From the NCBI GenBank assembly GCA_039545275.1, contig BCHS01000020.1:1-64000 (forward strand): 64,000 nucleotides of DNA, given 5' to 3'. Numbering within the stretch: position 1 is the stretch's first letter; each line of letters opens with the position of its first letter. Below are positions 37,142 to 61,100 of this stretch, piece by piece. Position numbers and translations under genes: made by a program. The notes under the pieces were generated by a model. It saw only the letters and a program-made list of their open reading frames with translations. It was not told the DNA's origin and made no database searches. This DNA comes from Pseudomicrostroma phylloplanum (lineage: Eukaryota > Basidiomycota > Exobasidiomycetes > Microstromatales).

Positions 37142-37926
37142 TCAACAGCAGGGCTTGCGGCTCACCGAGGGCGGCTCGCGGGAGGCTCGACTGACGCGAC
37201 AGGAGGGCTTGTGGCTCGGCGACTTCGACTGGAGCGATGAGGGCGGCTCAAGGAGGGCTCGGGGATCTCTGGTGCAGAGGTGGATCTGCTTCTCGGGGAG
37301 GGGCTCATCCAGTCCTCCGTCCACCACGGCACTCTGTAGCAGCAGATTCTGCGCCCTCAGAGCGTCGGCCCAGGGTCGCCCTGCTGCCTCTTCTGCCTGG
37401 CGAAGGTTTTGGTAACCCTTCCACGACGTCAGCGAGCTCGCCATGGTGATCTGACCGTTGGGCAGCAGCCGCGGCAATCTCTGTCGCACCTCAACCCACC
37501 GGACCTCGTCCCTCGAAAGGAGCCACTTGAAATCCCGCAGGTGGCTCACACCGTAGAGGCACGGCTTGATCCAGACCTTGCGATCATCGGCTGCGAGCAT
37601 TTCTTCCACGTCCCAGCCGATGGCCTTGAAATGCTTGCGAGTGAAATTGGCGCGAAAGCCTTGGCCGCCGACAGACTCGAGGGAAACGCACACGCTGTTG
37701 TCGGTAGTGAAGAGATTGCGCCGAGCTGCCCTGAGACAAGGCGGCTCTCCGGCCACTTCCACCTTTCTGACTGCGCTCCCCTCTTCCTGCAGAGCGGGGT
37801 CGCATTGGTCGACCAGCGCTCGCTCTAGCTCCTGGAAGATATTGAACAGCAGAGGCTTGCCAAGAAGTTTGATGCCCAAGTCCTGCCAATCGGTGTGGGG
37901 TAGCATTTGATCCGGCGTAAGAAGTA
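37142..37926 (-). pseudogene. Multicopy family, module B copy (decayed, frame-shifted from module A)
   Basis: The frame keeps the landmarks of module B: WQDLGIKLLGKP, LFNIFQELERALV, CDPAL, AIGWDVEEM, DDRKVWIKPCLYG, HLRDFKWLLSRDEV and AAGRPWADAL. It lacks its own ATG near the start. It is joined to the module A remnant at 38655 by a deletion and frame change around 37930-37970. The C-terminus runs past the normal end (SALV in other copies) into about 55 residues coded by an imperfect GGCTCG-rich repeat at 37142-37290. Function is unknown. Confidence 0.6.
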
Positions 37927-37929
37927 CAG

Positions 37930-38655
37930 CTAGGCCATTTTTCCTTTCTTGCCTACCGATGCTGAATCTGCAATTGTCCGTAATTTCCCCACATAGAGCA
38001 GTCGCATTCTTCCTGCTGCATCGAAGCCCGCTGCGAGGTAGGCGGTTGGCTGACAGAAACCTTGTGCGCTCATGGACAACATGCAAAGGTCGGGCAAGTC
38101 TCGCCTTGCTTCAGTTGTGTTTGTCAAATCTAGGCGGTCGATTCCAAGCTTTGTGGCCCACTCTTGCCAAGATGTTGCTTGCTTGATTTTGCCTACGATT
38201 CCTCCGTCGATGAAGCGCAGTATGTCCTGGAGAATCGGATTGATGCCCCGCTTGATCGTGCGCAGGAAGCCTGGAAGGTCTTCGGCGTTCTTTCGCTGCC
38301 AGGTATGGATCTCCAAGTCTGTCTTGCCCTTGACACCGCTTTGATAGAGCGCTATCGTCCTCTCTAGTACGCTCTCGATAGCGCTAGAGGCAGCAGTGGG
38401 TCGCTTCTGAAGAGTGTATTCGAGTCTCTCAATGTCTCCGGACTGGCTGCGATGTACTGTCTTGTACACTGCACCTTCCCTTACGGTCAGGACGGGGCCT
38501 TCGCGCTTCGCTTTCAAGTAGCCGTTGTCCCTTGTGTCGTCGGGAGTGGGTCGCTTGTTCGCTCCATTTGCGTTGGCAGACGACTGGGCAAGAGATATTC
38601 GAGGCAAAAGTGGAAAGAGCCTGCTTCCGAATGAGACTGGGTCGTCGTCGAGCAT
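37930..38655 (-). pseudogene. Multicopy family, module A copy truncated inside the GIY-YIG-like domain
   Basis: Starting at the ATG at 38655 (MLDDDPVSFG), the frame gives 241 residues. The helical region is clear: VYKTVHRSQSGDIERLEYTL, ALYQSGVKGKTDLEIHTWQ, ILRFIDGG and WQEWATKLGIDRLDL. The nuclease-like strands follow (PTAYLAAGFDAAGRMRLLYVGK). The sequence then leaves the family consensus after the YVG strand and stops. The arginine helix and the rest of the domain are missing. The frame is also open upstream of the ATG, through a repeat shared with 58.04 kb. The acidic, motif-rich N-terminus of other copies is reduced. Probably non-functional. Confidence 0.6.
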
Positions 38656-38745
38656 AGCGTTTGACGAGCTAAGCGATTGAAGTTGATAACTTTTGATACG
38701 ATTGATCGAAGTGAATTGATATACGTCTGCCTCGCGCCAGCAAAC
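38656..38745. repeat. Repeat shared with the 3' flank of RRP12, copy 1
   Basis: This stretch is homologous to 58030-58110 in the same orientation. Both contain, in order, GACGAGC, TTGATACGATTGATYGAAGTGAA and a GCGCC end, with small changes. Both copies sit at an edge of a family locus. Confidence 0.7.
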
Positions 38746-38775
38746 CGGTGGAAGAAGTACAAATGGGCCCATGTC

Positions 38776-39613
38776 CTACCGATCGGTAACCACGATGAGA
38801 GCGCTGTCAAGCAACAGATTGTGTGCTAGGAGACCGTCAGCCCAAGGTCGTCCTGCCGCTTCGTCTTCGCGTCGAATCTCCTGGATGTAGATCCACGCCG
38901 TTTTTGAGCCAGCATTTGTGACTCGCCCTCTCACCAAGTTTGGCAGCCTTTGCTTGACCTCTGACCATTCGATGTTGTCTCTGGACAGCAGCCAGTGGAA
39001 CTCACGCAGGTGGGTGGCGCCGTAGAGGCATGCCTTGACCCAGATCGTGCGGTCGTCCTGTGCTCGCATTGCCTCAAGGTCCCAGCCGATGTCTAGGAGT
39101 GCGCCAGGAGTGAGGTTCGGAGTGAGGACCCTGCTGTTATGCGTCAGACTAAACGTCACCTGGTTGCGAGTGAACAACAGGGTGCGCTCGATCGAACTCA
39201 GGCAGTCCGGTTCCTCGATGCGGTCAACTCCTTGGGCTGCACTCCCGTCCTCCAAGAGGGTTGGGTTGCACGGGTTGACGAGCGCTCGCTCCAGTTCGCG
39301 GAAGATGTCGAAGACCGCAGGCTTGCCCAACAGCTTGACACTCAAGTCCCTCCAACCGTCGTGAGGCAGCAGCTGGAGTCGCCAGCGGTTAATTGCTGCT
39401 GCTGGTGGGAGCGCTACCGCCGCACTTGCCCTCACGGTCGGCCTGCGGAAGCTTCCTTCGCCCGCCTCGTCGACGATGTCGAAGCGGCACATCATGGAGT
39501 CCTGCTCCAGAGTGCTGTCGTGGCCGTCGAGTTCCAGCTTGTCTGCGAGGATCTCGGTGGAGAGTGAGATAGCCAGACCCTTGGACAGACTCCACAGCTC
39601 TCCGATATGCTCT
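38776..39613 (-). CDS. Multicopy family, module B protein (open frame)
   Basis: An ATG at 39495 gives 239 residues ending LLLDSALI plus four residues. The same frame is open back to a splice acceptor at 39614, preceded by a 101-bp intron (39714-39614), so the real protein may start further upstream. Landmarks in order: MMCRFDIV, SFRRP, AAAINRWRLQL, VKLLGKPAVFDIFRELERAL, LLEDGSA, DIGWDLEAM, DDRTIWVKACLYG, HLREFHWLLSRDNIEW and GRPWADGLLAHN. I do not recognise the domain. The same module occurs at 56.35-57.75 kb and, broken, at 37.1 kb. Conservation of charged and aromatic residues between copies supports real coding. It is transcribed ahead of the module A remnant on the same strand. Confidence 0.55.
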
Positions 39614-41066
39614 CTGAGTGGTGACGAAGTTTAGAGTATAGCACGTCAATTACTGGTCTGGCGTACGACCTAGCTTGAAGCTAGAGAAGAGCCTAGCAGC
39701 ACGACTGCACTCACCAGCCTGGTATCAGAGGGGATCCGTAGAAGGACGTCTACCTTGTAATTTCATCAGAAGCTCCTTCCTGTGTCTGTATGCTTGATGA
39801 CGAGGTCGAGAGTATCCGTGCGGTAGTACCAGATCTGAGGAAACGGAGGTAGTAGTATCAGGGGTCTGTCAGTGCACTGCTCCTCATCTCCTGATCGGAG
39901 TGACTTCCAAGGTCTACTCGCTGAGAGACTCACCCGATAAAGCATGATCGTGATGACTACGATCACTTGTAGAGGCCATGAGACCTTGATGCGAGGCGTG
40001 TCTTCTGAGAATCCTTCCTGTTCTCAGCCGGTCGAGAGATGAGAGCGAATGATTGGGAAGGGACAAGGACCCTCCAGTCATTTGCCTCCTCCCTGGTAGC
40101 ATCTACCGTCCTTGTCTTGCCTCGATGTGTATTACGGCGTGGTCCAGCATGCCCTGAGTGAGGCGTGACCGTCCTTGAGATGGATGAACTTGGTGAAGCG
40201 GGTTCAGTGGCTGAACTATAGTGCGAAGACTACAAAGTAGGATACGTTGTATGATGGCAAAAGGTGGGATGGGGATGTGCCTGCATGAGGAGGTTGAAGG
40301 ATGCAGCCAGTTCATCAGTCTCTGCGTGCAAGTGACCTGATAGTGGCCGATGGGGAAGCGTCCACTTACCCAAAGTCGATGCAGCTATCGTATCAGTCGG
40401 AGTCATGTCGAAGCTAGTATGATTCTGTTGTTACATTGAGATATCAACGGGCTGATCAGAAGGACAGAAGAAGGACAGTCAGCATTTGCGAGGGCGGTGG
40501 ACAGGACACCGAAGCGCTCTTAGGTGCTCGCACAGACTCACCGACGACGGGTATGGACATGCAGCATCGTGCTAGTCGAAGGATCAGAGCGAGGATGTTG
40601 TGCCTTGTAGTGTAGGGATGGGAGAGCTCAAGAGGGTGTGAGGCTTACGAGGCCAGAGGCGGAGAGAAGTAGTCTTGGATGAGGAGGATTAGACGCAAGA
40701 GTGTATGACTTAGACACGTACTGGACGGCACCAGAGCTCTGTGCAGTCATCGACTCTTGTTCCAGAGTACGATACGGTGTGGCTGAAGTGGATGAAGGAG
40801 ATGGAGTGGATGGAAGGGATGAAGTGGATGAGGGAGAGACACAGACGACTGAGCATTTTCGTCTGCCCTCTGCCCTCGGCGGCTGCTGATGGCCCCTGTC
40901 GCAGCAAAGAGCAAAGGCCGGAAGCATGAGACGCGCTCCCGCCCGGCCACACCCAACGAGGCGTTCATTCTCGTACATCTCACCCTCACAACAGTATTCT
41001 TCCGAGCGTGATCCTTCTGGACTGCGTCACACCAGATATCTTGCACCTCTCTTCGCTAAGACTCAC
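39614..41066 (-). other. Chain of canonical introns upstream of the module B gene (minus strand)
   Basis: Read on the minus strand, this interval holds well-formed introns with GTGAGT or GTAAGT donors, a CTGAC/CTGAT-like branch site and AG acceptors: 40541-40452, 40369-40281, 39933-39835 and 39714-39614 (89-101 bp each). A further donor lies at 41066. The exons between carry no long frame. It may be a spliced leader of the module B gene, a spliced non-coding RNA, or a decayed multi-exon gene. Confidence 0.4.
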
Positions 41067-41834
41067 TGGCCTAAGACATCGCCACTCCTGACCTAACATC
41101 CTGTACCCCTCCCTTGTCGCCCCAGAGCTTCCAATACATAACGTCTCGGCTCACGTTCTACGCCTGACATGTCCATGAGACACCTCGCCGAGCCTTCTTC
41201 GTGTAAGCTCCACGATCATCTCTGGAGATGGAATCCAATGTACACTCCGTTTCCTCGGTCTGTCTAGTGCCTCATTGGCAGTGGCAATCTAAAGGGCGTC
41301 AAAGGTTCCCATTCTGCCAAGTCTCGGCGACGAGGTCGGGCTTGGAGGGTACCGAATCGGACAGCAGAGTAGTAGCCAAGGACTGCTTGTGACCCTCTAT
41401 CTCTATCGCAGCTGGCTTCGACGTAGGCGAGTCGCTGATCCTCCTTTACGTCGGTGAAATGGCGAGAGACACCAAAAAGACTCGTCAGCACTACTGGCGG
41501 ACGCCGGCTTCGCAAGAGAAGACATTGCTGTAATCTTTCGCAGAAAGATGGGAGTGGCTCTTTGTGCCCAGAAGTTGGGAATCGAATCCTTCCACAGGTT
41601 GCAGCGTCACCCAAAGCTTGTGTCTCGTAGTCTGGAAGGCGACCAAATGTAATCAGCAGCACTTCCGCCTACGGCCGTAGTCATGTGTTTCCCATTTGCC
41701 GTGAATTTCCTCTGCATCCCCTTTAAGATAAGCAGTTTACCCGTGATCAACGACAGTGGCGAGCCGCACATGTCTGCGCCAAAGATCCACGATGAGTCTG
41801 CAGTCAATCTTCGATTGTGGGTAGTGCGGCAATG

Positions 41835-47619: not shown

Positions 47620-47974
47620 AGTTTACGTTCGAAAAGCGACCTCTCACTGAGACATTTGTCAACAGACAGGCCTCACGAAAGCGCACAGATACTTCGGGAG
47701 TTTTCGTTGCAAAAGGAAGCAGTATGTGCTGTGTGAAGTCCTCTGCGAAAGACGGCGATGACTGAAGACGATCATATACGATGAGGCTGAAACAGTCTCG
47801 CGCGCTGAGCACTGAACGGGCTAGCAGTACCATGCATCAAACGGCCATCCAGTCGGCTCCACAGCCATTCCCAGCGCCTGTCTCGCCTGCACAAGTCGAG
47901 GCCCATCTACTCCTGTTGCGACGGAGCACTTATCAAGCCCCCGCCCAAGGCGCAATAAGGGCAAGGCGAGGCAA

Positions 47975-48926
47975 ATGTCCTCAGAAGATAGCACGCAAGA
48001 GATGGCTGAGACCCCTCCGGGTGTGAGCCCAAGCCTGTTCACGTCATCCTCCTACGAGCCTTCGAGCTCGCCGACGGCAACGCCTTCCAGCCCAGCGAAG
48101 CCAGCAAAGCGTCCAGGGTCGCTCAAGTACCTGGGCGCAATCAGCAAGAGAGCAAAGGCTAAAGCCCAGCCTTCTGCTGTCAATGCTGTTGCTTCCTCCT
48201 CTTCCTTGCCTGCTGCTCACTTCGCCTCTCAATTGGAAGGGGGCCCCTTCAAGCGAACCTCTTACACCGACTTCAGCAAGGTCTTCAACGATCTTGAGAA
48301 GCGCGTTGTGAGGGAGGGAAGACGTCTCGGCTAGGCTGACACCGCCATCAACGCGGCTGCGATCCCCCTGGCGAAGTTCCCCGAGAGCGCCGTCTTGTTC
48401 TGGTAAGGTCTTGGAGTCTTCGGTCCATTAGACAAGTGAGACTGACGCTACGTTACCTTTCATCTGACGATCCAGGCACGCATCCGGGCGCATGATGGAT
48501 CAGTTGCAAGGAGAAACTGGCCTCTCAAAGGAGGTGCAGTTGGAGTACTTCAGGCTGCTCGCGCACCTGCAAGTGCTGGAGATTGCCAGGTCGCTACACA
48601 GGTTTCCCTCCAGGAGAACACAGGTCAAACAGATCTGGGCTTCCCTCCTGGCCCCCTTTGTCAGGCAGAATAGCCTCAACAACGCCTTTGCCGTGGTCGT
48701 CTCCAGGACTGTGAAGGACTTGGACGCTCTCCTGGAGGTCTGCGAGTCGTCGCTAGACCTGGAGGCCGAGCAGAGGAAGGTGAGTGTAAGACCTTCGAGG
48801 GTCTGATTGCTTGGAAGAACCATACTCTGACGAGAGCTGTTCTTCTTCTTCTAGTTCCTGGCCAAAGCCACTCACGGGACCTTCGGCGATTACTTGCGCT
48901 CGGCAGACTTTGGGAAGGTCCTGTAG
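47975..48926 (+). pseudogene. Three-exon gene of unknown function with an in-frame TAG
   Basis: Exons 47975-48402, 48476-48779 and 48855-48926 join in frame, with good donors and acceptors, to 268 codons. A single TAG at 48332-48334 interrupts the first exon after EKRVVREGRRLG. The downstream frame (ADTAINAAAIPLAKFPE) flows straight into the spliced part. The N-terminal ~80 residues are Ser/Pro/Ala-rich. The rest is helical (LEYFRLLAHLQVLEIARSL, NAFAVVVSRTVKDLDALLEV). I do not recognise it. The TAG may be a nonsense mutation. Alternatively, a segment of 27 nt (GTGAGG to TAG, 48308-48334) or 54 nt (48281-48334) would remove the stop in frame, but 27 nt is too short for a normal intron and the 54-nt option has a weak GTCTTC donor. 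Confidence 0.45.
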
Positions 48927-49550
48927 CTAGTCTAGCTACGACTCCATACAAGAATGGGCCACCAAACGTCGAAGGCATTCTCGCCTAATCCTTCCCCTTC
49001 GATCCTTCACTACCGGCTGATGCGGCACGACCAGAGCACTAGTCTCCCTTCAATACTTCAACGCTGAAGCACGTCCGTTGTATCTTTGTTGATCAGCCAG
49101 CGTCTCGTATGAGCAACACATGTCAAACATTGAGGACGGTGCTGGTAGAGCCAACAGCCGAAATAGGGAAGGATGAGAGACAAGGTCAACGGAGATCATA
49201 GCACTCTCTGCTAGGTGAGTGTTCTGACCGGCAAGATCAGCTGCTCTCATACAGTCTTTCCGTTAGCCTCATGCTTACCATGTCAGTCTTCGTCTTCTCG
49301 TTCGTCCCTTCTTCCCTCCTCGCAGTACCCTCTCTCGTCTCATTTGTCCCTCACCTCTTACCATCAGTCTCCTCTTAACAATCTACCAGCCTCACTCCCC
49401 ATGCCAGCGACTTCCTTGCTCGCTTGGCCTCAAAGATCGCCTCCCTCTGAACCTTTCGTGAGTCTACCTGCTTGTCTCTTCACCTTGCTGAGACCGCCCT
49501 GCATGCAGCTCGCTGACCTTTGTGCACGCTCGTCCCAATAGACTGTCAAG
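48927..49550 (+). promoter_or_regulatory. Leader region of the first PIP-box family copy
   Basis: A CT-rich segment at about 49265-49400 leads to a leader intron at 49458-49541 (84 bp). The exon after it contains the MSKRP start at 49551. The intron and the bases just before it are homologous to 47536-47619, 51941-52029 and 53178-53273. Confidence 0.5.
49458..49541 (+). repeat. Homologous leader intron, copy at 49.5 kb
   Basis: This 84-bp intron starts GTGAGTCTACCTGCTTGTCT, contains CCGCCCTGCATGCAGCTC and CTGACCT, and ends in AATAG. Equivalent introns lie at 47536-47619, 51941-52029 and 53178-53273. The exon end before each (AAGATC-CCTC-CTCTG type) is also similar. Confidence 0.7.
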
Positions 49551-51255
49551 ATGTCAAAGCGTCCGCTCAAGCAGACGACGCTCAACAAGTACTTCTCTCC
49601 CAAAGTGGAGCAGCCCGCTATCGTCATCACTGATAGCAAAGAGGAAGAGGAGCTCCCTCTTCCAAAGAAGAGGAAGGGCCGACCTGTCGTGCTCGTCATC
49701 GAGGACAGCGAAGAAGGAGACGAAGTTCCGCTACCAGAGAACAAGAGGCGCCGAGCCATCGGGCCCGCGGTTGAGGATAGCGACAGTAACGAAGAACAAG
49801 AACTTTCCGCCTTCTTCAAAGAAAGGGCGCGTCAATCGACTCGTCATTGCGGACAGCAATGAAGAAGAAGAAGACCAGCCTTTCATTACCACAGGACGGG
49901 AGATATCCTTGGAGGAGAGCCTGGACTCCTCTGACGAGGAAGGACACGAGGAAGAAGAAGATGATGAGGCCAACGTCGTCGGGGCGACAGAGGGGGAAGG
50001 CACTACGAAGACATACACAAAAGGAGGCAATATCTGGAAGAGGATCCATCTCGACGCCGCTCATCAGATCACAAGGGTCGAGTTCACCCTCCAGCCTCGT
50101 CCGACGCCCGTGGGAACTGGACTGGCCGACGTCTTTGAGCGGACAAGGGCACTGTACAAGTCCGCGCTAAAGGGCAAAGTTGACCTCCAGTCCCACCCAT
50201 GGCAGTTGGAGTCTGCTCAAGAGCTGGCCAATCTGACAAATGACATCGAAGACGGCTGCACACCTTTTCTGAAAGACGTATTGCGCCTCGTCGACGCCAA
50301 TAACGTAGCCCGCGTGAAGCAGGCCTCCTTCTGGCGGCTGTGGGCAACGCGAATGCAAATGGATGGAATCGACCAGCAAGACGAGGCTCGTTCGCGACAG
50401 GTTCTCTTACGCCTTTCGCTGATCGCATCACGAATGCCGGGCGCTACCTGACCCACCGTCTATTTGGCAGCTGATTTCGACGCAGAAAGCGGAATTACGC
50501 CTCTGTACGTCGGAAAGACAGGCAGTCATCCTGGCAGGACGAAGAATTGTTACGCTCGAATAATGGGTCCGAAGCCAGCAGAACACGAAACCTCGCTCTT
50601 GGATGTTATGGCAAAGGAGTGCAGTCTCTTCTGCATACTGCCCGCGGTGGAATCCACGGGTGACGACTGGCATGCTCAACAGGCAACAGCTGAGGGTCTC
50701 TTGTGTTTGCTGTTTGATACATTCCAGCTGTTCAAGACGACTCTCCAGGCAAGGGCAAATGCGGGACTGCTTGACATTGGCGAGGAGGTGCGAGGAGCCA
50801 ACAGCACGCCATGTTGCGAAAGGCCCCTCTACTCGAAGATCCAGGTCTTCTCCAAGTACCAGCAAATGGCCCGACTACACCAACAGGCCATCGTCTTCTT
50901 CAACGACATCGCCCTAGAGGTGGCAGGCAAAGATGCGAGCAACGAGGAGATTGTTGCCTTCGTCGAAGTGTACATGACACAGCAGCGAGCCTACGCCGAC
51001 CTCTGCTCATGGCGCAAGCAATCCTTGAAGGCTGGTACCTTCGCAGTCAAAAGCACAAAGGATCGCATCGTGATCTTTGGGGCAGCTATAGCTATTGACT
51101 GCGAGGCAGGCGTACACTGGCTGCTAAAAGCCACTGCGACCAAGGCGCCTCATCCCAAAGACATTGCGATCTGCGTAGACGAGCTAGATGCTCTGCTGTT
51201 ACGAGGTCTGCAACTGAGATGTACCCGGCAGGACGATCCGAGCAAGACTTTCTAG
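49551..51255 (+). pseudogene. PIP-box / GIY-YIG-like family, copy 1 (frameshift and stop)
   Basis: This is the only copy that shows the whole module A architecture, about 568 codons. Residues 8-15 are QTTLNKYF, an exact PIP box (Q-x-x-L-x-x-Y-F) for PCNA. IVITDSKEEEE and VLVIEDSEEGDE follow, resembling SUMO-interacting motifs. A one-base frameshift near 49795-49815 moves the reading to NRLVIADSNEEEEDQ and an acidic Ser-rich stretch. A helical region ends at LWATRM. A TGA at 50449-50451 then interrupts, just before the GIY-YIG-like strands VYLAADFDAES and PLYVGKTGSH. The remainder (ILPAVESTGDDW, EGLLCLLF, GANST, LLLRGLQLRC) matches the intact copy at 54805. The lesions suggest a recent pseudogene, unless the assembly is in error at two points. 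Confidence 0.65.
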
Positions 51256-51288
51256 GCACAGGCACCCCGGCAGACTGGCAGCAAGTGG

Positions 51289-51807
51289 ATGAAGGCAATA
51301 GAGACAATGAGGCGCCGCGGTGCAAGCGAGGCGAGATGGAAGCAGCAAGACGAGGCTACTTCACGAAAGCGAGCCACCAGGCGACCCCTCGCAGAGAAGT
51401 CCTCCTCAGACGAGGAATGGGTAGATGAGTCTGAGGACGACCAAAGTGAGGCTGAAAGCAGGAAGACAGCACTCAAGGCGAAGCTCGTCAAGGGCCGAGA
51501 CGCATTGTCAAAGACGATCAAGCCCAAGCGAGCCAAGCAAGCACCTCCGTCGTCGACCGAGACCACGTCCACGGCAGACTCATATGTCAGAAGAGGGGGG
51601 GAGGTCTTCAAGACCATATCTCGTACTACGACTGGCGACGTTCACCAGGTCCAGTATCGTCTTCAACCACGTCAGCCCGCTGACGATAGCAGCCTCACGA
51701 CTATGCTCGAACGAGCGACGACCCTTCTGCGAGATAGCGTTGCAGGCGGCATCGACCTTGGGTTCGCTCACTGGCAGAAGTCAAACGAATTGTATGCCTA
51801 CTTCGAG
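51289..51807 (+). pseudogene. PIP-box / GIY-YIG-like family, copy 2 (N-terminal half only)
   Basis: An ATG at 51289 opens 173 codons. A basic/acidic N-terminus (SRKRATRRPLAEKSSSDEEW) precedes the start of the helical region (GEVFKTISRTTTGDVHQVQY, LDLGF-type segment HWQKSNELYAYFE). The homology stops abruptly at 51807, where GTAAGC could act as a donor. The GIY-YIG-like half is absent. Splicing from 51808 to the acceptor at 52029 would keep the frame and join it to copy 3. The simpler reading is a truncated duplicate. No PIP box is visible in this copy. Confidence 0.5.
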
Positions 51808-51940
51808 GTAAGCGGTCGAAGCAGCAGGCCACCTCGTACCAGCCGCGCTCCTCGCCTCATACCTCGTACCAGCCTCGCTCCGCGTCCCGGCGGCCTCCCT
51901 CCTCCCCCTGCGTCCAAGATCTCCTCGCTCTGTTCTTCTC

Positions 51941-52029
51941 GTGAGTCTACAGTACCTGCTTGTCTCATCACCTTGATGAGGCCGCCCTGCATGCAGCTCT
52001 CTGACCTATGTAAACACCCGTCCCGACAG
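51941..52029 (+). repeat. Homologous leader intron, copy at 51.9 kb
   Basis: This 89-bp intron starts GTGAGTCTAC, shares the CCGCCCTGCATGCAGCTC block with the copy at 49458-49541, and ends CCCGACAG just before ATCACAAAG-ATG. Confidence 0.7.
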
Positions 52030-52038
52030 ATCACAAAG

Positions 52039-53150
52039 ATGGCGAAACTTCCGCTCAAGCAGACATCGCTTGATACATTCTTCTCTTGCGGAGTGGCACA
52101 GCCTGACATGAACGACGACGACGACGACGATGTAGTCGTCCTGTCTGCCAACAAGAGAGGACGCAATGTACCCATCATCATCAGCGACAGTTAGGAAGAG
52201 GCCGAATTTCCTCTCCAGACAGAGAGCACGAGCCAACACACACACAAAACGAGGAGGAGAAATCTAGAAGCCTGTTACCTGCTGTCTGACGAGATCGAGC
52301 GAGTCGACTACCGCCTCCAACCTCGGCCCCCCTCCAAGGCCGACACTACCAACAAAGTCGCACAACGCGCGGCTGGACTATTCGAAAAGGGAGTCAGGGG
52401 TCAGGGCGACGTAGACTTCAAGGCTTGGAACAGAAGCTCAGTCAAAAGCCTTCAGCGCTACCTGGACATAGTGAAGGACGGTTGCACTCCGTTCTTCAAG
52501 GACATCCTGAAGCTGATCAATGCCGGAGAGATGGAGAGGATCAAGACGGTCAGCTTCTGGAAGGACTGGGCAGACAAGCTGGGTTGGAAGAGTCTCGATT
52601 TGACCAACCTGACAGAAGCTCGACGAAGTTCCATCCGTCACTCTCTTGACGCAGTACACGCAGACGGCGCCCTATATCCCACTGTATACATTGCCGCTGG
52701 CTTTGACGCAACGGGACGTATGACGCTTAACTGTCCTTCGTGAGATATCAGACAGTGCAGCGGCTGCATATCGAAGCCACCATCCACATGCACGCTCTGA
52801 GTATCAATGTCGTGGGAGAATTTTACAGACAAGGATATACTGGACCTCGTCGCCGCGGCCAGCATACAGCAAAAGACACGCTATCGAGCCCACTACTGCC
52901 GTCACCAATCCCTACTCGAAGGGTCATATGTGATTAGAAGCAAGGACTCCGGGCTGCCGATCTTTGCTGGCCCTGTTGGCGTGGGAGAGGTGGACTCTAG
53001 GTGCTTTCTCAAAGTTACGCAAAAGTAACGACCCGACGCCAAGAGTTCTGGTAATTTGTGTCAAGGAAGCGGAGGTCCCGCTGTGGCGAGGTCTGCAGGT
53101 GCAGATAACGCCAAGGTATGACCCAGATCGCAAAATGTGGGCTCTATTGG
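52039..53150 (+). pseudogene. PIP-box / GIY-YIG-like family, copy 3 (stop, frameshifts, internal deletion)
   Basis: The ATG at 52039 starts MAKLPLKQTSLDTFF. Residues 8-15, QTSLDTFF, form a second perfect PIP box at the same position as in copy 1. DDDDDDVVVLSANKRG and NVPIIISDS follow as acidic/hydrophobic SIM-like patches. A TAG at 52192-52194 replaces a Glu codon of the family. The helical region continues in another frame (KDGCTPFFKDILKLI, FWKDWADKLGWKSLDL) into VYIAAGFDATGRMTL, then stops at 52741. The YVG strand and arginine helix are deleted. The C-terminal part (LLEGSYVIRSKDSGLPIF, EVPLWRGLQV) resumes at about 52840-53130 with one more frame change. Not functional as it stands. Confidence 0.6.
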
Positions 53151-53177
53151 ATCAGATCCTCTCGATCTGCTCTTCTG

Positions 53178-53273
53178 GTGAGTCTACCTGCTTGTGCCAT
53201 CTCGTTCATAGTACCGCCTTGTAGGCATTCACCTGACCCTCAAGCACTCTCGTCGTCAACGGATCATCGACAG
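53178..53273 (+). repeat. Homologous leader intron, copy at 53.2 kb
   Basis: This 96-bp intron starts GTGAGTCTACCTGCTTGTG, holds CTGACCCT and ends CGACAG shortly before an ATG at 53277. The middle is more diverged than in the 49.5 and 51.9 kb copies. Confidence 0.6.
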
Positions 53274-53276
53274 AAA

Positions 53277-54203
53277 ATGCTCAAGGGACCTTCCGCGGAG
53301 TCCTCTGGAGACGAAGCTACTTCATCAAAGCGAGCCACAAGGTCTAAAGGACCCCATTCTTGACATATCCTCGTATATCCCTCACTCGTCGCCCGCCAAC
53401 GTTCGAATACATACCCTTTGATCCTCCCTGTCCCTCGCTGCACAGGACCCGACATGCCAAAGCGACAGCGACACATCGCGTCGGACGAGGAAGACGAGAA
53501 GTGGGTGAATGAGAGCTCGGGGGACGAAGCTTCGGTGGATGAGCTGTCATCGGATGAGACTTCGGCAGAGGAGGCAAGCCCGCCTCAGGCCCAGGCCAAG
53601 TCCAAGGGCCGTGAGAAGGCAAAGGCAGGCAAGCCTAAGCGGAGCAGGAAGGACGGCACGAAGGACCTCGTGGCCGACGGAAAGACGTGGAAGAGAGTGA
53701 CCTACGACGCCGAAGGCAGGCCTGCAGACGTCAAGTACTACCTGCAACGACGTCCACTATCTACACCAAGCCCAGTCGAGGGTGTCTGGGCAAAGACAGT
53801 GGCTCTGTTGCAGGACGGGATCAATGGTAGAGTGGAGCTACGCGCCTGGGAGTGGCAGAAGACCTCTGCGGCGAAGTTTGCCGACCACATCAAGAGATTG
53901 GAGGACAGCAAGACTCCTTTTCTTGAGAAGGTTCTGCGCCTGGTCGATAGCGGCAATATCACCAGCTTCAAGAGCCTCAACTTCTGGGAGGAGTGTGCAG
54001 AGGAGGCAGGCTGGAAAGGGATTGACTTAGCCAACCGAGTGGAAGCCAAGCGCGAATACATCGATCTGTGCGCCGATGCAACGGAGCAACATGACTCGAT
54101 GTCCCCGTCCGTCTACCTCGTGGCGGGCTTCAACGCCGGGTCGATGAGTCTGCTGTACACTGGCAAGACCACGAGCCATGCGAGAAGGATGTGCAACCAT
54201 TAA
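53277..54203 (+). pseudogene. PIP-box / GIY-YIG-like family, copy 4 (truncated in the arginine helix)
   Basis: Two candidate starts exist. The ATG at 53277 begins a short frame (MLKGPSAESSGDEATSSKRA) that ends after 28 residues. The ATG at 53454 opens 249 codons with an acidic, Ser-rich N-terminus (MPKRQRHIASDEEDEKWV). This frame keeps the helical region (LLQDGINGRVELRAWEWQ, FLEKVLRLVD, FWEECAEEAGWKGIDL) and the nuclease-like strands (VYLVAGFNAGSMSLLYTGKT, then SHARRMCNH). A TAA follows where other copies have DHYEK, and a recognisable but broken continuation (LMLYSLAKGC) lies downstream. YTG replaces YVG. There is no PIP box at this start. Confidence 0.55.
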
Positions 54204-54804
54204 GGAAGGATGCTGAGCGCAACGCCAGCTTCACAAGGAATGTTGATGCTGTACTCTCTCGCTAAAGGGTGCAACCGGGTCAACAAACACACTCAAAGCC
54301 GGCGTCAATTGGCGAATAAAGATCACGGAGAGCGATGTACCTACCTCGAAGGGATTCGCAATCTGTGTCGATGAAGTCAATGTGCCTCTGTTGCGAGGGA
54401 TACAGGCCGAGTGCATCAATTTTCCAGTCAAGGAGACCATCTTCGACATCGTACAAAAGTTGAAGCGTCCTCTAGTGAGCCAATGCGACCATGCCCTGCT
54501 GGAAGATGGCGAAGGTCCACGTTGCCGGCGGCTTCGACGCAAACGGGACTATACAGCTCATCTATGTCGGCAAGACTGCCAACCACGCTCGAAGGACGGC
54601 GGACCACTATGCAAAGACGCTGGACGGCAATGTGGCTGGGCAAGAGACCACACTGCTGAATGCAACAGCCAAGGCATGCAGCTCCTTTTTCATCCTTCCT
54701 GCAGTCGGATTCACCGGCGACAATTGGCTGCAAGCGCAGGCCACGGCTGAAGGTCTGCTTTGCCTGCTGTTCGGAAGCTGCCAGTTGTACAAAACGGTAC
54801 TCTC
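54204..54804 (+). pseudogene. Mosaic of family fragments between copies 4 and 5
   Basis: In about 600 bp, pieces of different modules follow one another in different frames. First comes the C-terminal module A piece (VDEVNVPLLRGIQAEC), fused directly to a module B piece (IFDIVQKLKRPLV, CDHALLEDG). Then a GIY-YIG-like fragment begins near 54510 (VAGGFDANGTIQLIYVGKTANHARRTADHY, here cut into parts: VAGGFDANGTIQLIYVGKT and NHARRTADHY) and runs to LLCLLFGSCQLYKTVLS at 54800. This is best explained by deletions and unequal exchange between tandem copies. Confidence 0.5.
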
Positions 54805-56400
54805 ATGTCTGCCGTCAAGAGAGGCACTATCGTTATCGACGATAGTGAGGAAGAAGTCGAAGCTCCTCTCGAAAAGACCCAGAAGAGAGCACGGGCTAAT
54901 AGGCTCGTCGTTGAAGACACGGATCATGAGGACGATAACGAGCCTACCGTCACGCCAGCACAAGAAGCAGATTCGGAGGAGAGTTCAGAGTCCTCTGACG
55001 AGGAAGGACTCGAGAAGGAAGAAGAAGATGAGGCCGACGTCGTCGGGACGACAGAGGCGGGAGGCACCATTAAGGTCCTGATGGAAAGAGGGGAGGTCTG
55101 GAAAACGACTTACCTGGACGCAACTGGGCATGTGACGAGAATCGTATTCAATCTTCAGCAACGACTGGCGCCCGCTTGCAACGAGATCACAAGTGTTTTC
55201 GACAAGACCGTTGCCCTCTACGAGGAGGCAATCAAGGGCGAGGCGGACCTCGGAGTTCGTGGTTGGCAGCAACAATCGAAGAACAATTTCAAGAATATAC
55301 TTACTACCATCGAGAAGGCCATCACTCCCTTCATGCTGGACCTACTGCGCCTGGTGGACGCAAGAGAAGTAGATAGATTGAAGCAGCGCGAGTACTGGCA
55401 AGAGTGGGCCACTCGAATCGGTACTCCTTGGCTGGACCTCTCGGACCAAAGGGCAGCAAGACGGGACCTGATCTATGACTGTCTTACGGCCGCCGAAGCG
55501 CAAGGAGGCACCACCCCAACAGTCTATATTGCTGCTGGCTTCGACATGAGCGGAGCGATGACACTCTTGTACGTCGGAAGAACTACTTCCCACACTCGGC
55601 GAATATTCGACCATTACGAGAAGCTTCTCGATGGCACGCCGTCGCACCAGCAGAGTACGCTCCTATACTCGCTGGGCAAGGAGTCCAAGACATTTTTCAT
55701 TCTGCCGGCTATCGAGTTTAAAGGCCCAGCCTACCAGGAAGCTCAGGCCACTGGCGAAGCTCTCTTCTGTCTGCCGTTCGGCACCTGTCAGCGCTCCAGA
55801 ACGGTACTGTCTGCCCGGGCAGAAGCAGGCCTACCCGACATTGGCCGTGAAGTGCAAGGAGCCAATAGTACCTTGTGCTTCGAAGCTCCCCGCGCCCGTA
55901 GCTCCCACGCTACGAGCGAGATGAACTGGCTTGTGTACGACACCACGCGTCGACTGCACGGCCAAGCCATCGTCTCTCTCGAGCTAGTCACTCGGCACGT
56001 CAATAGCGATGGACACAACACCAAGAGCGATTTGGTCGCGGCGCTTCGAACCCAGCGCCGCTGCTACGAGCGCATGTGCTTCTGGCGCTATCAGTCCCTG
56101 CTGGTCGGCTCATGTGAAGTCAAGAGTACGAAAGCGGGACTGCCGATCCTCTACGGCAATGTCCGGGTCGGAGGAACAACAGGCAGCAAATGGCTACTCA
56201 GGGTCACCGAGAGCAGCGAGCCAAGTCCACGCGACCTCCTAGTCGCCGTCGAGGAAGTCAATGTTCCCCTCTTGCGAGGACTGCGGATACGATGTACCTC
56301 GTGGAATGATCCGACACAGACGAAAGACGCACAGCGCGCTGGTACAAGCACCTCTAGCTGCCGCCATCGACCGCTGGCAGCTCCAACTCGGCACGCATAG
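54805..56400 (+). CDS. GIY-YIG-like family, copy 5: longest intact module A protein
   Basis: The ATG at 54805 opens 531 uninterrupted residues. Positions 7-19 (GTIVIDDSEEEVE) and 33-45 (RLVVEDTDHEDD) resemble SUMO-interacting motifs. Residues 52-78 are acidic. Residues 95-235 are the helical region. A GIY-YIG-like core follows: strand TVYIAAGFD (239-247), strand LLYVGRT (254-260), then TRRIFDHYEK (264-273) with the arginines and His/Tyr expected in the first helix, and a later Glu-containing helix QATGEALFCLPF (314-325). A C-terminal domain of about 180 residues ends VEEVNVPLLRGLRIRC. GIY-YIG enzymes cut DNA (UvrC, SLX1, homing nucleases). Assignment here rests on motif spacing and is unproven. 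The upstream PIP box of sister copies is missing, so the true start may be lost. The frame leaves the family consensus after about residue 506. Confidence 0.55.
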   Translation: MSAVKRGTIVIDDSEEEVEAPLEKTQKRARANRLVVEDTDHEDDNEPTVTPAQEADSEESSESSDEEGLEKEEEDEADVVGTTEAGGTIKVLMERGEVWKTTYLDATGHVTRIVFNLQQRLAPACNEITSVFDKTVALYEEAIKGEADLGVRGWQQQSKNNFKNILTTIEKAITPFMLDLLRLVDAREVDRLKQREYWQEWATRIGTPWLDLSDQRAARRDLIYDCLTAAEAQGGTTPTVYIAAGFDMSGAMTLLYVGRTTSHTRRIFDHYEKLLDGTPSHQQSTLLYSLGKESKTFFILPAIEFKGPAYQEAQATGEALFCLPFGTCQRSRTVLSARAEAGLPDIGREVQGANSTLCFEAPRARSSHATSEMNWLVYDTTRRLHGQAIVSLELVTRHVNSDGHNTKSDLVAALRTQRRCYERMCFWRYQSLLVGSCEVKSTKAGLPILYGNVRVGGTTGSKWLLRVTESSEPSPRDLLVAVEEVNVPLLRGLRIRCTSWNDPTQTKDAQRAGTSTSSCRHRPLAAPTRHA

Positions 56401-56644
56401 GGGCTGGGAGGCTGCTGGTATCAAGTTGCTCGGCAAGCCGGAGATGTACGACATCTTGAGGGAGCTAGAGGGTGCGCTGATCAACGGCTGCGACCCTGCG
56501 CTACTGGAAGACGGCAGCGCCACGCGAGAGGTAGACAGGGCAGGCGAGCCGCACTGTACGCAAGCCAGCCAGCGTACTCTGTAATTCGATCGCAACCAGG
56601 CAATCGTCAGCTTCAAGTACAACTCTCAGAAACTTGAAGTCAAT
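56350..56644 (+). pseudogene. Module B fragment with an in-frame TAA
   Basis: In a frame different from copy 5, module B begins near 56350 (LAAAIDRWQLQLGTHRGW, IKLLGKPEMYDILRELEGAL, CDPALLEDGSA). It reaches TAA at 56582-56584 in the RTL-L-F segment that is open in the other copies. It continues in the same frame through 56644 into the ORF that starts at 56645. The junction with copy 5 near 56340 is a one-step frame change. Modules A and B may once have formed a single chain. Confidence 0.5.
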
Positions 56645-57751
56645 ATGACTCCTGGTGCGCTCAGGGCGGTTGGCTGGGATCTGGAGGCTATGCAAGCGTC
56701 CAACGACCGCAACGACGGCAAGATATGGGTAACGGCGATCGAGAGCCTCAGACTCGGCGGCACTCACGAGGCAGAACGCAAACAGCTGGCGCAAGAGGCC
56801 AAGCGCGCGATGCAAGCGCAGCAGGTCATCAGGCGAGGTCGTATCAAAGACTTCGACTCCCTCTCGCCTGTCGCTCAGGCAGCGTGGGACGGCCGTCTCA
56901 TAGCAGGTCGCGCATTCTTGACATTCGCGCACAAGAATGTCGCTCAGTGGGGTGGCGACCGGGAAGCCTTCATCGCCAGATTGAGGCAGCTTCTAGCATT
57001 GGACGAAGAGCACTCCACGACCATGGAGTTAGAGTCTGCAATCTGTCGTTTCGAAATTGTTGCAGCAGCAGGTGCGGGAGCGGGAAGTTTTCGGCGACCG
57101 AACAGGACTGGGATCAGGGAGCTAGTCAGTCTACCGCCAGCAGCAGCGATCGATCGCTGGCGTATTCAGCTGCGCAATCACGAAGGCTGGCATGAGCTAG
57201 AAATCAAGCTGCTAGGAAAACCGGCCATCTTCGAAATCTTTCGAGAGTTGGAACGCAGTCTAGTCAATAGATGCGACCCTGCCCTTCTGGAGGACGGTAG
57301 TGCGGTGCTGGCAGTGGACCGACCGGAAGAGCCACACTATCTCCGGGCCGCTAAGCGCACGCTGCTGATGAGCCGCACCGATGCGACAATTGGCATCATC
57401 CACAATGGCTGGCAGCTCAAGGCAACCTTTCAGCAATCCGTCTTCGGGGACATCGGCTGGAATTTGCAGGCTATGCGCGACCAGAATGATCGTAAGATCT
57501 GGGCCAAGCCTTGCATCTACGGCATTACTCACTTGAGGGACTTCAAGTGGCTGGTTTCAAGGGATGAGGTAGAATGGCTAGAAGTCAGACAAAGGCTTCC
57601 AAGGCTACACAAGGGGCGCGTCACCCTCTCCGGCGGTGCAACGACATGGAGGAAGCTTCAAGAGGCCAGGCAACTGGACGAGCAAGCAGGACGGCCCTGG
57701 GCAGATGGCCTCCTTGCCGATGCTCTGCTACTCGACAGCGCTCTCGTCTGA
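56645..57751 (+). CDS. Module B protein of the multicopy family (368 residues, intact)
   Basis: An ATG at 56645 opens 368 residues. The first ~40 are the tail of an interrupted module B (MTPGALRAVGWDLEAM, DGKIWVTA). A charged helical linker follows (EAERKQLAQEAKRAMQAQQV, AAWDGRLIAGRAF, WGGDREAFIARLRQLL). The complete module B then runs from about residue 155: SFRRPNRTGIRELV, AAIDRWRIQLRNHEGW, IKLLGKPAIFEIFRELERSL, DIGWNLQAM, DDRK-like NDRKIWAKPCIYG, HLRDFKWLVSRDEVEW, GRPWADGLLADALLLDSALV. The same linker precedes the module B gene at 39.6 kb, so linker plus B looks like one unit. I recognise no family. A helical DNA- or protein-binding role is possible but unsupported. Confidence 0.55.
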   Translation: MTPGALRAVGWDLEAMQASNDRNDGKIWVTAIESLRLGGTHEAERKQLAQEAKRAMQAQQVIRRGRIKDFDSLSPVAQAAWDGRLIAGRAFLTFAHKNVAQWGGDREAFIARLRQLLALDEEHSTTMELESAICRFEIVAAAGAGAGSFRRPNRTGIRELVSLPPAAAIDRWRIQLRNHEGWHELEIKLLGKPAIFEIFRELERSLVNRCDPALLEDGSAVLAVDRPEEPHYLRAAKRTLLMSRTDATIGIIHNGWQLKATFQQSVFGDIGWNLQAMRDQNDRKIWAKPCIYGITHLRDFKWLVSRDEVEWLEVRQRLPRLHKGRVTLSGGATTWRKLQEARQLDEQAGRPWADGLLADALLLDSALV

Positions 57752-58124
57752 GCCAGTCGCCTCGCCCAGTCGCCCTCGGCGTCTGATCAACTTGCATCTC
57801 GTGTCACTGCCTCGCAGCACATTGTCGTCATCTCGGCTCACAGCCGTGACTTCCTGCCTGTCTTTCTGTCGCCACGGACAGTCTATGGCCAGCATCAGTA
57901 GGGACCAAAAGTACAGTACACAGACTTTATAGCCAGCTCTTTTATGGTACACCAACGAACCCCAAAAGATCCTCTTGTCTCAGTAGCTATACACATTATC
58001 AGACATAGCCATGTGCGACGCCCAGCATAGCGTCTGACGAGCCTAAGCAATTGATAACTGTTGATACGATTGATTGAAGTGAAATGATATGACCGTCTGC
58101 TCCGCGCCACTCTTCACCTCCTCT
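57752..58124. other. Spacer between the last module B gene and RRP12
   Basis: This convergent spacer carries the repeat at 58030-58110. No gene was seen. Confidence 0.5.
58030..58110. repeat. Repeat next to the RRP12 3' end, copy 2
   Basis: This is the partner of 38656-38745. It lies between the last module B gene (end 57751) and the stop codon of RRP12 (58125). It probably belongs to the RRP12 3' untranslated region, which would make the 38.7 kb copy a duplicated piece of that region. Confidence 0.7.
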
Positions 58125-61100
58125 TCACCTCCTCTTCCCACCCTTACCCGTAATATCAAGCGCAGGCGCTCCTCCCCTCCCGCCCTTCTTTGCCTTCTTT
58201 CCACCAATCTGCGATAGAGGCACGTACGCAAAGGGGTCCTGTCCATCCTTCTTGACGTCTCCCTGAGCCTTCTTGGCTCTAAACTCCCGACCAATCTTCT
58301 CCCTCTCGACGCGAGGTCGCTTCTCCTTGGCAGAAGCACCGCCAGCACCAGTGGCGGCTGCAGCCTGCTCTTGCGCTACGAGCGCTTCCTCCATCTCAAT
58401 GTCCTGCTGACGGGTGCGCTTGTTGTTCTTGTTGAACTTGACGGCACCTCCGCGGCCAGAGTGGGTGTGACCACCGACGCCTTGCCCGCCTTCGATGTAG
58501 GCTCCAGCAGCACCAAAGTCGCCGAGCTCGTCGGAGGCAGAGGCACCTCCAGCGCCGCCGCCCTCTCGCTCACGATCGTCGATGACCATCATTCCGGTCT
58601 CTTCGTCGAGGGAGAACTTGCCGGCCTCTTGACCCGGTCGACGCTTCCTGTCGGCTGCCTTGCCATTGGGTGGTGCACCTCCACGACCCGTGACGATCCT
58701 GCCTGCAGCGGATGCAGACCTATCCAGCAGGTCCATTGGCTCATCGTCGTCCTCGAGGAGGTAGGTGTCCTCACCGTCACCACGACGACGGCGTGCGGGC
58801 TTGCTGTCACGGGACTGAGCACCCTTGCCGGCCTGCCTTGCTCCTGCTGCCTTGCGAGCAAGAGTAGCAGCGACGTTGCCCACGCCCGCACCACCCTCGT
58901 CGTCACTATCGCTGTCTGAAATCTCACTCTCGCTGCCGTAGAGGGCCTCTTCAAAGGCGTCCATGCCGAGCTTCTTGGGCGCACGAGCTCCGATGCCAGG
59001 AGCGACGACTGCATCCTCTCCATCAGCGTCGGCACCACCGTCCTCTGCGTCTTCTCTGCTGACCTTCTTCCTCTTGGCCCTCTCTTTACGCTTCTTGATG
59101 TTATTGACCAACTTGCGATTCTCCTCGTCGGTGAGCTCCAGAATACGCTCATAGCCAAAGCGCCTCATCAGTCGCTCAAAGATGTGCCTCACTTTCGCCT
59201 TGAAGTGGGCTCGGTGTTCGGGAGACCATTTGAGCATGGCGGGGACCATGGCTGGGAGGTGGGCATTGACGAGATCAAATTCCAGGGAGACAATGGCGAC
59301 CTTGACGAAGCCGAGGACGCTCTTGACAATCTCGCGATTGGGACTGCTGAGGAAGACTTCGATCGTGGAGATGACCTCGTCGATGACCTCACGAGGGACT
59401 TGCTCCTTGAATTCGTAGATGAGGCGGGAAAATGCCGTGATGGAGGCAGAGATCATGTGTGGAGATCCGCCAGCCAGTCCAGCGCCCACCATGGTGAGGT
59501 ACTCGGTCAGAGTGGCATCCACTTCCGAGTCGTCCTTGATGGACGTGTCCTCCTCTCCGTCACCCTCGTCCTGGGCATCGACATTCACCAACCCCCTCTT
59601 GATCTTCCCACCTCCATCCATCTTCTGACCCATCTGCACCAGCAAATCGTAGGCCGTCTCTCGCGAGCCCTGATTGGTCTCCTTGGTGGCCAGGACCGCT
59701 TCAGGGATGATGGAGGGCAAGAGGTGCAGCTCCGTCGAAGGGATACGAGGGACCATGGCAGCGAGGAGGTTCAATCGGTCTCGCTTCGCTCCCTGGACGA
59801 CGTCTACAGTAGCCTTTCGTACATTGGTGAGCAGAGAAGAGACGTTTGCCGTCGTGCCTGCGCCAGAGCGGAGCAGAGCCTCGCCCTTGTGGCCGTCGAG
59901 CAAGCGTGAGAGCACACGGTAGGTCTTCTTTTGCACTCCAGCATCCTCGTTGCGCATAAGCTCATGGCTCTCACACAGCCCAAGGAGAGACTTGCCGTCC
60001 TCTACTCCCAGGAAGGGCACGAGAGTGATGAGCAGATCTAACATGCTGTGGGCCACGGGCGGGACTGCATGTGGACCAACTTCTCGATCGCGCTGGGGTA
60101 CCAGCTCAGCCGAGGACGTCTGAAGCATGCCGCGGATCTTGGTGAACGTCTCCTTGACCTCGTTGGCTGGCAAGATACGGAGGTAAGCTCCAATGGCTTC
60201 CGAGATGTAGCCGCGAGAAGAGGAAGGCGACTGCGTGAGCAGATTCGAGAAGACGGAGAGGAATGCCGGTGCCAAGCTGATGAGGTGGTCCAGATGAGCC
60301 TTCCCTTGAGCTTGCGTGAGGCCAAAGGTGAGCTTGAGCACCTCGTCTGGGGCGCCGCTGCGAGAGAGAGCTTCGTTGCGCTCCACCAGCAGAGTGAGAC
60401 CGCGCAGAACACTCGGACGGAGGGACTGCTGGGTGTACAGCACATTGGTCAGAAGCTCGGCGGTCTTCTGGCTGAGAGCATCAACGAGGTCCACTGGCAA
60501 GTCACAGTAGCCAGGGAACAAGGCCCACAGCTGGTCGATGAGCGCCTCGTACATCTTGGCCTCTACTGCGCGTCCCTTGCTGTTCTCTGCTGCAGCTCGA
60601 GCATTGAAGAGCTTCTCGGACAGAGGCACAATTTCGCTCACAAAGTGAGACAGCTTGGTGTTGGTGATGCGGCCGCGCATCAGAGGGAGCAGCCAAGCTC
60701 GTCCCTCTTTACCAGGTCCGTCTTCGCCCAATAGTCCAAGGGGGAGTTCCTTGAGCAGCGCCTCCGGTCCGCACACTTCCGTTGCTGCTCCCAAGACGAG
60801 ATCGGCTTGCTCGCGATGCTCAAATTTGGGCGTCTGCCGCAGGTCTGCAACTGTCCTGATCAGAGGCATGAGGAGCTGAGCAGCTGCCGAGGAACCATCA
60901 GCAGCAAGCCTGACTCGTAGCCTCGTGACCAAGACCGCCAGGATCTGGAGAATGTCACCGCGAGAGTGAGTGATTCGTAGGGCATGGCGACCCAAGGCAG
61001 ACTCAATTGATTCGATGATACTGCCCATAGCGGGGCTGGAAGACTGGCCCGCAAGCGCTTCCTTGATGGCCGCTTCTGGGATGCAGTATCGAATAAAGGA

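Follow-up and report, generated by a model that had tools for sequence, protein, structure and literature searches.

A multicopy protein family with a probable GIY-YIG domain forms a decaying array in the fungus Pseudomicrostroma phylloplanum

GIY-YIG domains cut DNA with the help of a metal, two Tyr, an Arg, a His or Tyr and a Glu. The eukaryotic groups listed in the table of a published catalogue are Slx1, MutS fusions, an ankyrin/LEM group, Penelope and three unorthodox members (PMC1564403, 2006). Here, we describe a protein family with a probable GIY-YIG domain, found as an array of repeated units in the first 64 kb (hereafter the window) of contig C20 (384,805 bases) from the basidiomycete P. 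phylloplanum, whose genome comprises 17.08 Mb in 20 contigs. The layout of this family is absent from all groups in that table (PMC1564403), and no description of it was found in the literature searched, where the matches were mostly papers on mitochondrial or smut genomes, with some on Slx1, HIGLE and Penelope.

The family resembles UvrC/Cho in giving with it the best single-family profile match (77.4%), in its first Foldseek match, in NCBIfam matches to Cho (2 of 15 aligned rows) and in a conserved Asn after the domain, as reported for the UvrC-like lineage in the catalogue (PMC1564403). Unlike UvrC, however, its frames showed no Pfam match to the C4, UvrB-binding and EndoV-like parts that the catalogue assigns to UvrC (PMC1564403); these and all other Pfam domain negatives reported here cover the family frames scanned from the window and from the paralogues. 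Furthermore, the family has large unrelated flanking regions and is encoded by eukaryotic nuclear genes, whereas UvrC and Cho are bacterial excision nucleases. Slx1 would be comparable as a eukaryotic nuclear GIY-YIG enzyme, structure-selective in its case, but it is catalogued with a C-terminal RING and without a C-terminal Asn (PMC1564403). The family is set apart from Slx1 by its conserved Asn (9 of 10 rows) and by the lack of a RING match when the C11 frame and C5 frames 166–1431 and 2135–3709 of locus L039 were scanned with Pfam.

Penelope-like elements likewise place a GIY-YIG endonuclease in multicopy eukaryotic loci, but no reverse transcriptase (RVT), which in those elements lies N-terminal to the GIY-YIG domain, was matched in the frames scanned, and this separates the family from them. 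The eukaryotic COG3680 group of ankyrin/LEM proteins, which we take to include ANKLE1, also consists of large multidomain GIY-YIG proteins, yet neither an ankyrin nor a LEM domain was matched by Pfam in the family frames. As for the mitochondrial GIY-YIG homing endonucleases of fungi and those of their genes that strayed into the nucleus, they share a fungal GIY-YIG domain and decaying copies, but the family protein is much larger and its frames lack NUMOD matches in Pfam scans, setting it apart from homing enzymes. In Ustilago maydis, a mitochondrial GIY-YIG homing gene that strayed into the nuclear genome has mitochondrial G+C and codon usage (PMC7593156); in contrast, the G+C of the array (0.55–0.58) matches its own surroundings and is similar to that of the remainder of the window.

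To delimit the family, a unit map was drawn from protein and DNA searches of the window, taking the breaks directly from the sequence. A single protein family accounts for seven plus-strand units or fragments at 49.5–57.75 kb (U1–U7), two minus-strand units at 37.3–39.6 kb (U8 and U9) and a fragment at 41.4 kb (U10). Its segments lie at 49551–57748 (+), 37322–39522 (−) and 41393–41566 (+), with ~29–64% protein identity and E-values down to 1e-110. The landmarks WQ, LRLVD, WATR, VYIAAGFD, LLYVGKT, SHARR, EGLLCLLF and LLRGL, most of them already listed in a first-pass annotation of the sequence, or near variants of them, were common to the repeated units in our alignments. Searches of the same genome, whose counts are lower bounds, identified relatives at four further places: C5 (181.5–191.7 kb), C12 (137.5–146.6 kb, with a final frame extending to 147.7 kb), C16 (119.3–123.1 kb) and C11 (227872–230769), with cross-place matches 22–46% identical. 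C5, C12 and C16 contain more than one unit apiece, some of them partial. The C11 paralogue is one 966-codon frame, whereas at 188.2–191.7 kb on C5 three overlapping frames make up a near-complete gene, in which, judged by eye, introns likely follow AAGE and GGN. At the GGN position, also by eye, C11, U1 and U6 read through without a break, whereas in the copies of C5, C12 and C16 the frame is disrupted. Separately, C10:420263–420520 (+) showed a weak match to the C-terminal half of the family (E 0.014, 32% over 86 residues) and is possibly a sixth place.

The layout of the family consists of an acidic N-terminus, sometimes bearing a pattern like a SUMO-interacting motif (SIM), a helical region, the probable GIY-YIG domain, a region ending in LLRGL or similar (RGL region), a linker with a WDG motif and a C-terminal domain. 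This last domain corresponds to what had been annotated as an unknown module B, an assignment as a separate module that we reject from its match to the C5 paralogue. The third frame of C5 matches frames of C12 and C16 (best E 1.5e-43, 1.1e-39 and 9.4e-39) and also the window's module B (E 1.6e-5 for the whole frame when searching from module B, 2.2e-4 in reverse), although the two stretches of module B alone match C5 weakly (E 0.14 and 0.012; single stretches 0.01–0.2 overall). Because this frame links the C12 and C16 frames with module B, and because the window and C5 copies share by eye a GRPW(A/E)DG end, module B is, judging from these sequence matches, the C-terminal region of the same protein family. 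Pfam recognised nothing in it, and a profile search against PDB returned two chance-like matches (E 0.84 and 1.9). In one C12 paralogue (C12b), the tail (L041:4031–4690, equal to C12:147031–147690) carries a Cys/His pattern in place of the GRPWxDG end. By eye, we take this pattern to resemble a retroelement zinc knuckle; it had no Pfam match and one further, weak match in the genome (C4, E 0.0015).

Residue conservation was counted in an alignment of 15 pieces from the five genomic places, over the rows with a residue present. The Tyr and Gly of the YIG motif were each found in 11 of 11 rows and the Tyr of GIY in 10 of 12, followed by Arg at +10 (8/10), His at +14 (9/10), Glu (10/10) and Asn (9/10), and these signature residues rank among the best-conserved columns. 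Four further positions, a Gln, an Arg and two Leu, are specific to the family and present in 10 of 10 rows each. No column is invariant across all 15 rows, in part because many of them are fragments. The Arg and His were counted from the YIG Tyr, and I-TevI has the same +10/+14 spacing. All key positions are kept in C11, in C12b and in both longer C5 rows, whereas the first Tyr is missing from U5 and U10, the Arg from U10 as well, and the His from U1. The first-pass annotation would have given up its GIY-YIG assignment had Arg, Tyr and Glu not been conserved, but all three are.

Profile comparison agreed with this assignment. The 11 rows with at least 40 residues in the domain were compared by hhalign with profiles, built from fetched loci, of YhbQ (76 rows), UvrC/Cho (18 rows) and T4 endonuclease II (DenA), and with a mixed profile combining the full UvrC/Cho set and DenA with every fourth row of YhbQ. 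The mixed profile gave a probability of 84.2% (P 7.4e-6), as compared with 0.1% for each of the controls with partial upstream and downstream neighbour genes (60/80 rows each) and 0.1–2.5% for the reversed alignment across the same six targets. Sequence libraries returned sub-threshold matches: PF01541 (GIY-YIG) in three of the 15 rows (best E 0.026, scoring 15.3 bits where the cut-off is 22.6), PF19239 in one, NCBIfam excinuclease Cho in two, and the unrelated Herpes_UL46 (E 0.18) in one. The longer frames gave weak, unrelated Pfam matches and no GIY-YIG, except for window:54479–55078 (E 0.033). Elsewhere in the genome, PF01541 exceeded its cut-off at C20:176573–176830 (−) and C2:12442–12570 (+), in long open frames outside the places of the family. 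Searching PDB by sequence at E up to 10 produced two matches only, a NURS subunit (1.0) and T4 endonuclease II (1.2).

The first-pass annotation also proposed a structure prediction for 54805–56400, corresponding to U6. The resulting AlphaFold model (415 residues, 12 window rows in the alignment) orders its elements as strand-strand-helix-helix-strand-helix (149–155, 161–167, 173–184, 195–202, 206–208 and 219–234), the order of the GIY-YIG fold. Its mean predicted local distance difference test (pLDDT) score was 45.6, and the model is thus usable for the order of secondary structure alone. With Foldseek, 47 PDB matches at E up to 10 were obtained, the first being a UvrC GIY-YIG domain (0.64), the second an unrelated designed protein (2.0) and the third a UPF0213 protein (2.2), which we assume to belong to the GIY-YIG family. 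Taken together, conservation and the profile comparison support the proposed GIY-YIG-like domain, although no library match passed its cut-off, and indicate that the central domain is probably GIY-YIG; the predicted model follows the element order of that fold, though at low confidence.

From the above, we consider it fairly probable that these are nuclear GIY-YIG nucleases subject to duplication and decay, some members being perhaps tethered to PCNA. They would be large (~950-residue) fungal endonucleases whose catalytic domain most likely cuts DNA, in a metal-dependent manner, through two Tyr, Arg, His and Glu. Since the C11, C5 and C12b proteins keep the catalytic residues, they are expected to be active nucleases. 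The flanking domains would select the DNA, and the acidic tail and the helical, RGL and C-terminal regions, for which Pfam detected no recognisable homologues, presumably set specificity. Members of the lineage ancestral to some of the C20 units carried an N-terminal PIP box, which probably tethered them to PCNA at replication or repair sites. Copies would arise by local duplication and then decay, the old ones having once been under purifying selection and several being now broken. The family itself, its layout, conservation, decay and purifying history are observed, whereas we infer that it has nuclease activity, that DNA is its substrate, that PCNA tethers it and that it acts in genome maintenance or controls foreign DNA, a genome-maintenance or surveillance nuclease being the likeliest role. 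The family would then represent a new eukaryotic nuclease architecture, a multidomain group present in many copies, in which several regions match nothing recognised and some members carry a PCNA ligand, and the C11 and C5 paralogues offer concrete proteins for expression and testing.

Several observations weigh against this interpretation. The hhalign match spans 35 columns without reaching beyond the first half of the domain, and it is weak with YhbQ alone (15.7%) and with T4 endonuclease II alone (9.8%). None of the Pfam, NCBIfam or PDB matches passed its own cut-off, PF01541 was absent from 12 of the 15 rows and from the U6 frame, for which Pfam gave five weak, unrelated families, and a search of the whole genome with PF01541 at E up to 10 recovered no member of the array family. 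In PDB, the unrelated NURS chain scored slightly ahead of T4 endonuclease II; both AlphaFold models, made with window rows only, were of low confidence (mean pLDDT 45.6 for U6 and 41.7), and none of the 47 Foldseek matches was significant (none at 0.001). Additionally, C16 lacks the Arg at +10, and the spacing from Glu to Asn in U6, counted by eye, is 36 residues, longer than the 12–15 of UvrC and I-TevI. The best-preserved copies lack a PIP box, and nothing in the analysis ties the family to a substrate or pathway.

The sub-threshold library matches, missing altogether from most rows, the failure of the genome-wide PF01541 search and the low-confidence models would also be expected if an unrelated alpha/beta domain had acquired by chance a YVGK motif and an Arg/His helix. 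We consider such a coincidence very improbable, given that the first Foldseek match is a GIY-YIG domain and the third of 47 presumably another, that hhalign gives 84.2% with the mixed profile as against 0.1–2.5% with the controls, and that Arg and His occur at the I-TevI spacing. A GIY-YIG fold retained for binding DNA or protein, having lost catalysis in most members, would account for the strong divergence and for the residues missing from C16, U5, U10 and U1. However, Glu is found in 10 of 10 rows, the key positions persist in C11, in C12b and in the two longer rows of C5, and, of the four rows that lack a key residue, three come from broken copies in the window, making a binding-only family quite unlikely.

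Alternatively, the copies could derive from a selfish element that dispersed through the genome and is now decaying, whether an unusual transposon or a homing-type endonuclease gene standing on its own. Copies at five places and many fragments agree with this idea, as do the zinc-knuckle-like tail of the C12 paralogue, noted by eye, the inclusion of homing endonucleases and Penelope elements among GIY-YIG enzymes in the catalogue (PMC1564403), and the precedent of a homing gene moved to the nuclear genome of U. maydis (PMC7593156). Against it, the family frames scanned with Pfam gave no match to a reverse transcriptase, NUMOD or transposase domain, the tail had no Pfam match, cross-place identities of 22–46% indicate no recent dispersal, the window copies group together in the tree, as local duplication predicts, and substitution rates are purifying where measurable. 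On balance, we regard a selfish origin as unlikely. The pattern of genetic conflict, genome defence or selfish elements seen by the first-pass annotation finds no support here: rates are purifying, the family frames scanned gave no transposon domain, and the flanking frames scanned at C20, C5 and C12 are ordinary genes but for one C20 frame. A more specific version of the nuclease interpretation, which we put forward as a speculation of low probability, is a fungus-specific genome surveillance by PCNA-tethered, SUMO-responsive GIY-YIG nucleases evolving by birth and death. At replication forks, these would cleave DNA that is aberrant or foreign, swapping targeting tails (PIP, SIM or neither) among copies that are discarded as targets change, like defence genes.

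To estimate the age of the copies, we made 17 pairwise comparisons (24–264 codons) by the Nei-Gojobori method, which is rough near saturation. The proportion of nonsynonymous differences (pN) was lower than that of synonymous differences (pS), and the third codon position was the most divergent, in all 17 pairs. The synonymous rate (dS) was finite in eight pairs, 1.46–3.95, with ratios of nonsynonymous to synonymous rates (dN/dS), the measure proposed in advance, of 0.16–0.31; the other nine were saturated. The copies are therefore old and diverged under purifying selection, which argues against a recent duplication and against positive selection averaged across domains, and we reject both. 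In a tree of nine of the 15 rows, after removing by hand one 44-residue fragment and leaving out five rows, three window copies formed one clade (97/97) and two C12 copies another (95/98), with the C5 copies unresolved. These clades, together with the high dS, indicate that the clusters expanded locally, long ago, and visible decay is a later stage than cluster growth. Expansion by tandem duplication followed by loss through mutation, as initially suggested, is thus supported by both the unit map and the tree, but the duplication was local and not recent.

Judged by the layout of the paralogues, none of the seven plus-strand units is complete (Table 1). Apart from the stop codons given there for U1, U3 and U4, U1 has a frame break near 49.81–49.86 kb. 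U6 contains the longest open frame of the array, 549 codons from stop to stop; as an open reading frame it spans 531 codons, reaching 56397, of which ~506 are family sequence. Nonetheless, 54805–56400 cannot be taken as the intact gene it was thought to be, because it is truncated at its 5' end and broken in its 3' part. It is fused near 54.80 kb to the end of the GIY-YIG piece of U5 and has no 5' leader, no PIP box and no linker of the kind that precedes module B in U7 and in the C5 paralogue; the frame shifts after ~56322, and a stop falls inside module B. U9 lacks most of the GIY-YIG domain and the RGL region. The start given for U2 is the first Met of its frame.

Table 1. Units of the family and associated features in the window
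Feature	Coordinates	Strand	Content
U1 5' leader	49384..49550	+	direct repeats D2, D5 and D6; recurs before U3
U1	49551..51252	+	N-terminus with PIP box and SIM-like pattern 49551-49859; frame break; helical part 49813-50448
U1, continued	50449-51252	+	TGA 50449-50451, then GIY-YIG and RGL region 50452-51252
U2	51289..51786	+	N-terminal part alone, ending abruptly beside the U3 leader; family match 51547-51786
U3	52039..53125	+	PIP box QTSLDTFF, SIM-like N-terminus, TAG 52192-52194
U3, continued		+	helical part and GIY-YIG start (to 52728); RGL-region remnant 52843-53125
U4	53455..54516	+	acidic N-terminus, helical part, GIY-YIG first half up to TAA 54201-54203
U4, continued		+	RGL remnant 54298-54423; module B remnant 54415-54516
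U5	54515..54805	+	GIY-YIG fragment from LIYVGKT to QLYKTVL, fused to U6
U6	54805..56322	+	acidic N-terminus without PIP box, helical part, GIY-YIG, RGL region
U6 module B remnant	56339..56728	+	different frame; TAA 56582-56584
U7	56740..57748	+	linker LSPVAQAAWDG and complete module B, end GRPWADGLLADALLLDSALV; stop after 57748
U8	38779..39630	−	module B, 58-59% identity to U7
U9	37322..38598	−	N-terminal part to YVGK of GIY-YIG (38598-37984); module B (37909-37322)
U10	41393..41566	+	stray GIY-YIG fragment; first Tyr and Arg replaced

The pattern Qxx[ILMV]xx[FY][FY] identified exact PIP boxes, both starting at codon 8, in U1 (QTTLNKYF, frame at 49551) and in U3 (frame at 52039), that is, in two of 11 N-terminal pieces and two of 15 frames overall. 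None was present in the other 13 frames scanned, those of C11 and C5 included. The PCNA guidance first proposed for the family holds only as far as these motifs go: both copies are broken, no open frame combines a PIP box with a GIY-YIG domain, and PCNA tethering is plausible for the lineage from which some of the units descend. For SIMs, the same 11 N-terminal pieces, with U1 entered as two, were compared with 500 shuffles (P uncorrected). The pattern, a hydrophobic core beside acidic residues, was strict and does not capture shorter cores of three residues, for example TIVIDDSEEE in U6. A SIM-like pattern occurred in four pieces but exceeded the shuffles (P < 0.05) in just two of the 11, U1 (0.024) and C11 (0.008), and not in U3 (0.196) or C12a (0.2). 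SUMO guidance, also part of the initial proposal, is consequently reduced to a weakly supported SUMO binding by family members.

The leaders before U1 and U3 show 75% identity across 84 bases and 77% across 151 bases, and the longer match extends into the coding start. By eye, the U1 leader includes an intron-like stretch (GTGAGT at 49458, CTGAC, and AG at 49540–49541), and these splice-like signals suggest that it contains an intron. An extra copy of the leader repeat D5 lies upstream of the array at 47574–47620, with 64–74% identity to the other copies; no family segment was matched between it and 49551.

The array is bordered on its right by RRP12 (58128–62270, minus strand; PF08161, E 4.6e-82), and genes for an OPT transporter and an MFS transporter lie to its left. 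Flanking frames were scanned at C20, C5 and C12, and all are ordinary genes except for one C20 frame (48468–48803), which gave no Pfam match. Two stretches of the window, 38660–38745 and 58035–58109, share ~78 bases at 80% identity (93% over 40) in direct orientation, one adjoining the minus-strand units and the other sitting just downstream of RRP12. This pair suggests that the RRP12 flank was partly duplicated as the minus-strand units arose. A reading of the repeat (38683/58051) as a dispersed element was rejected, because a search of the whole genome located just these two places. No double TTAGGG is present across the window, and a CACTAGA-like tandem repeat occupies positions 9–171, at the extreme start of the contig.

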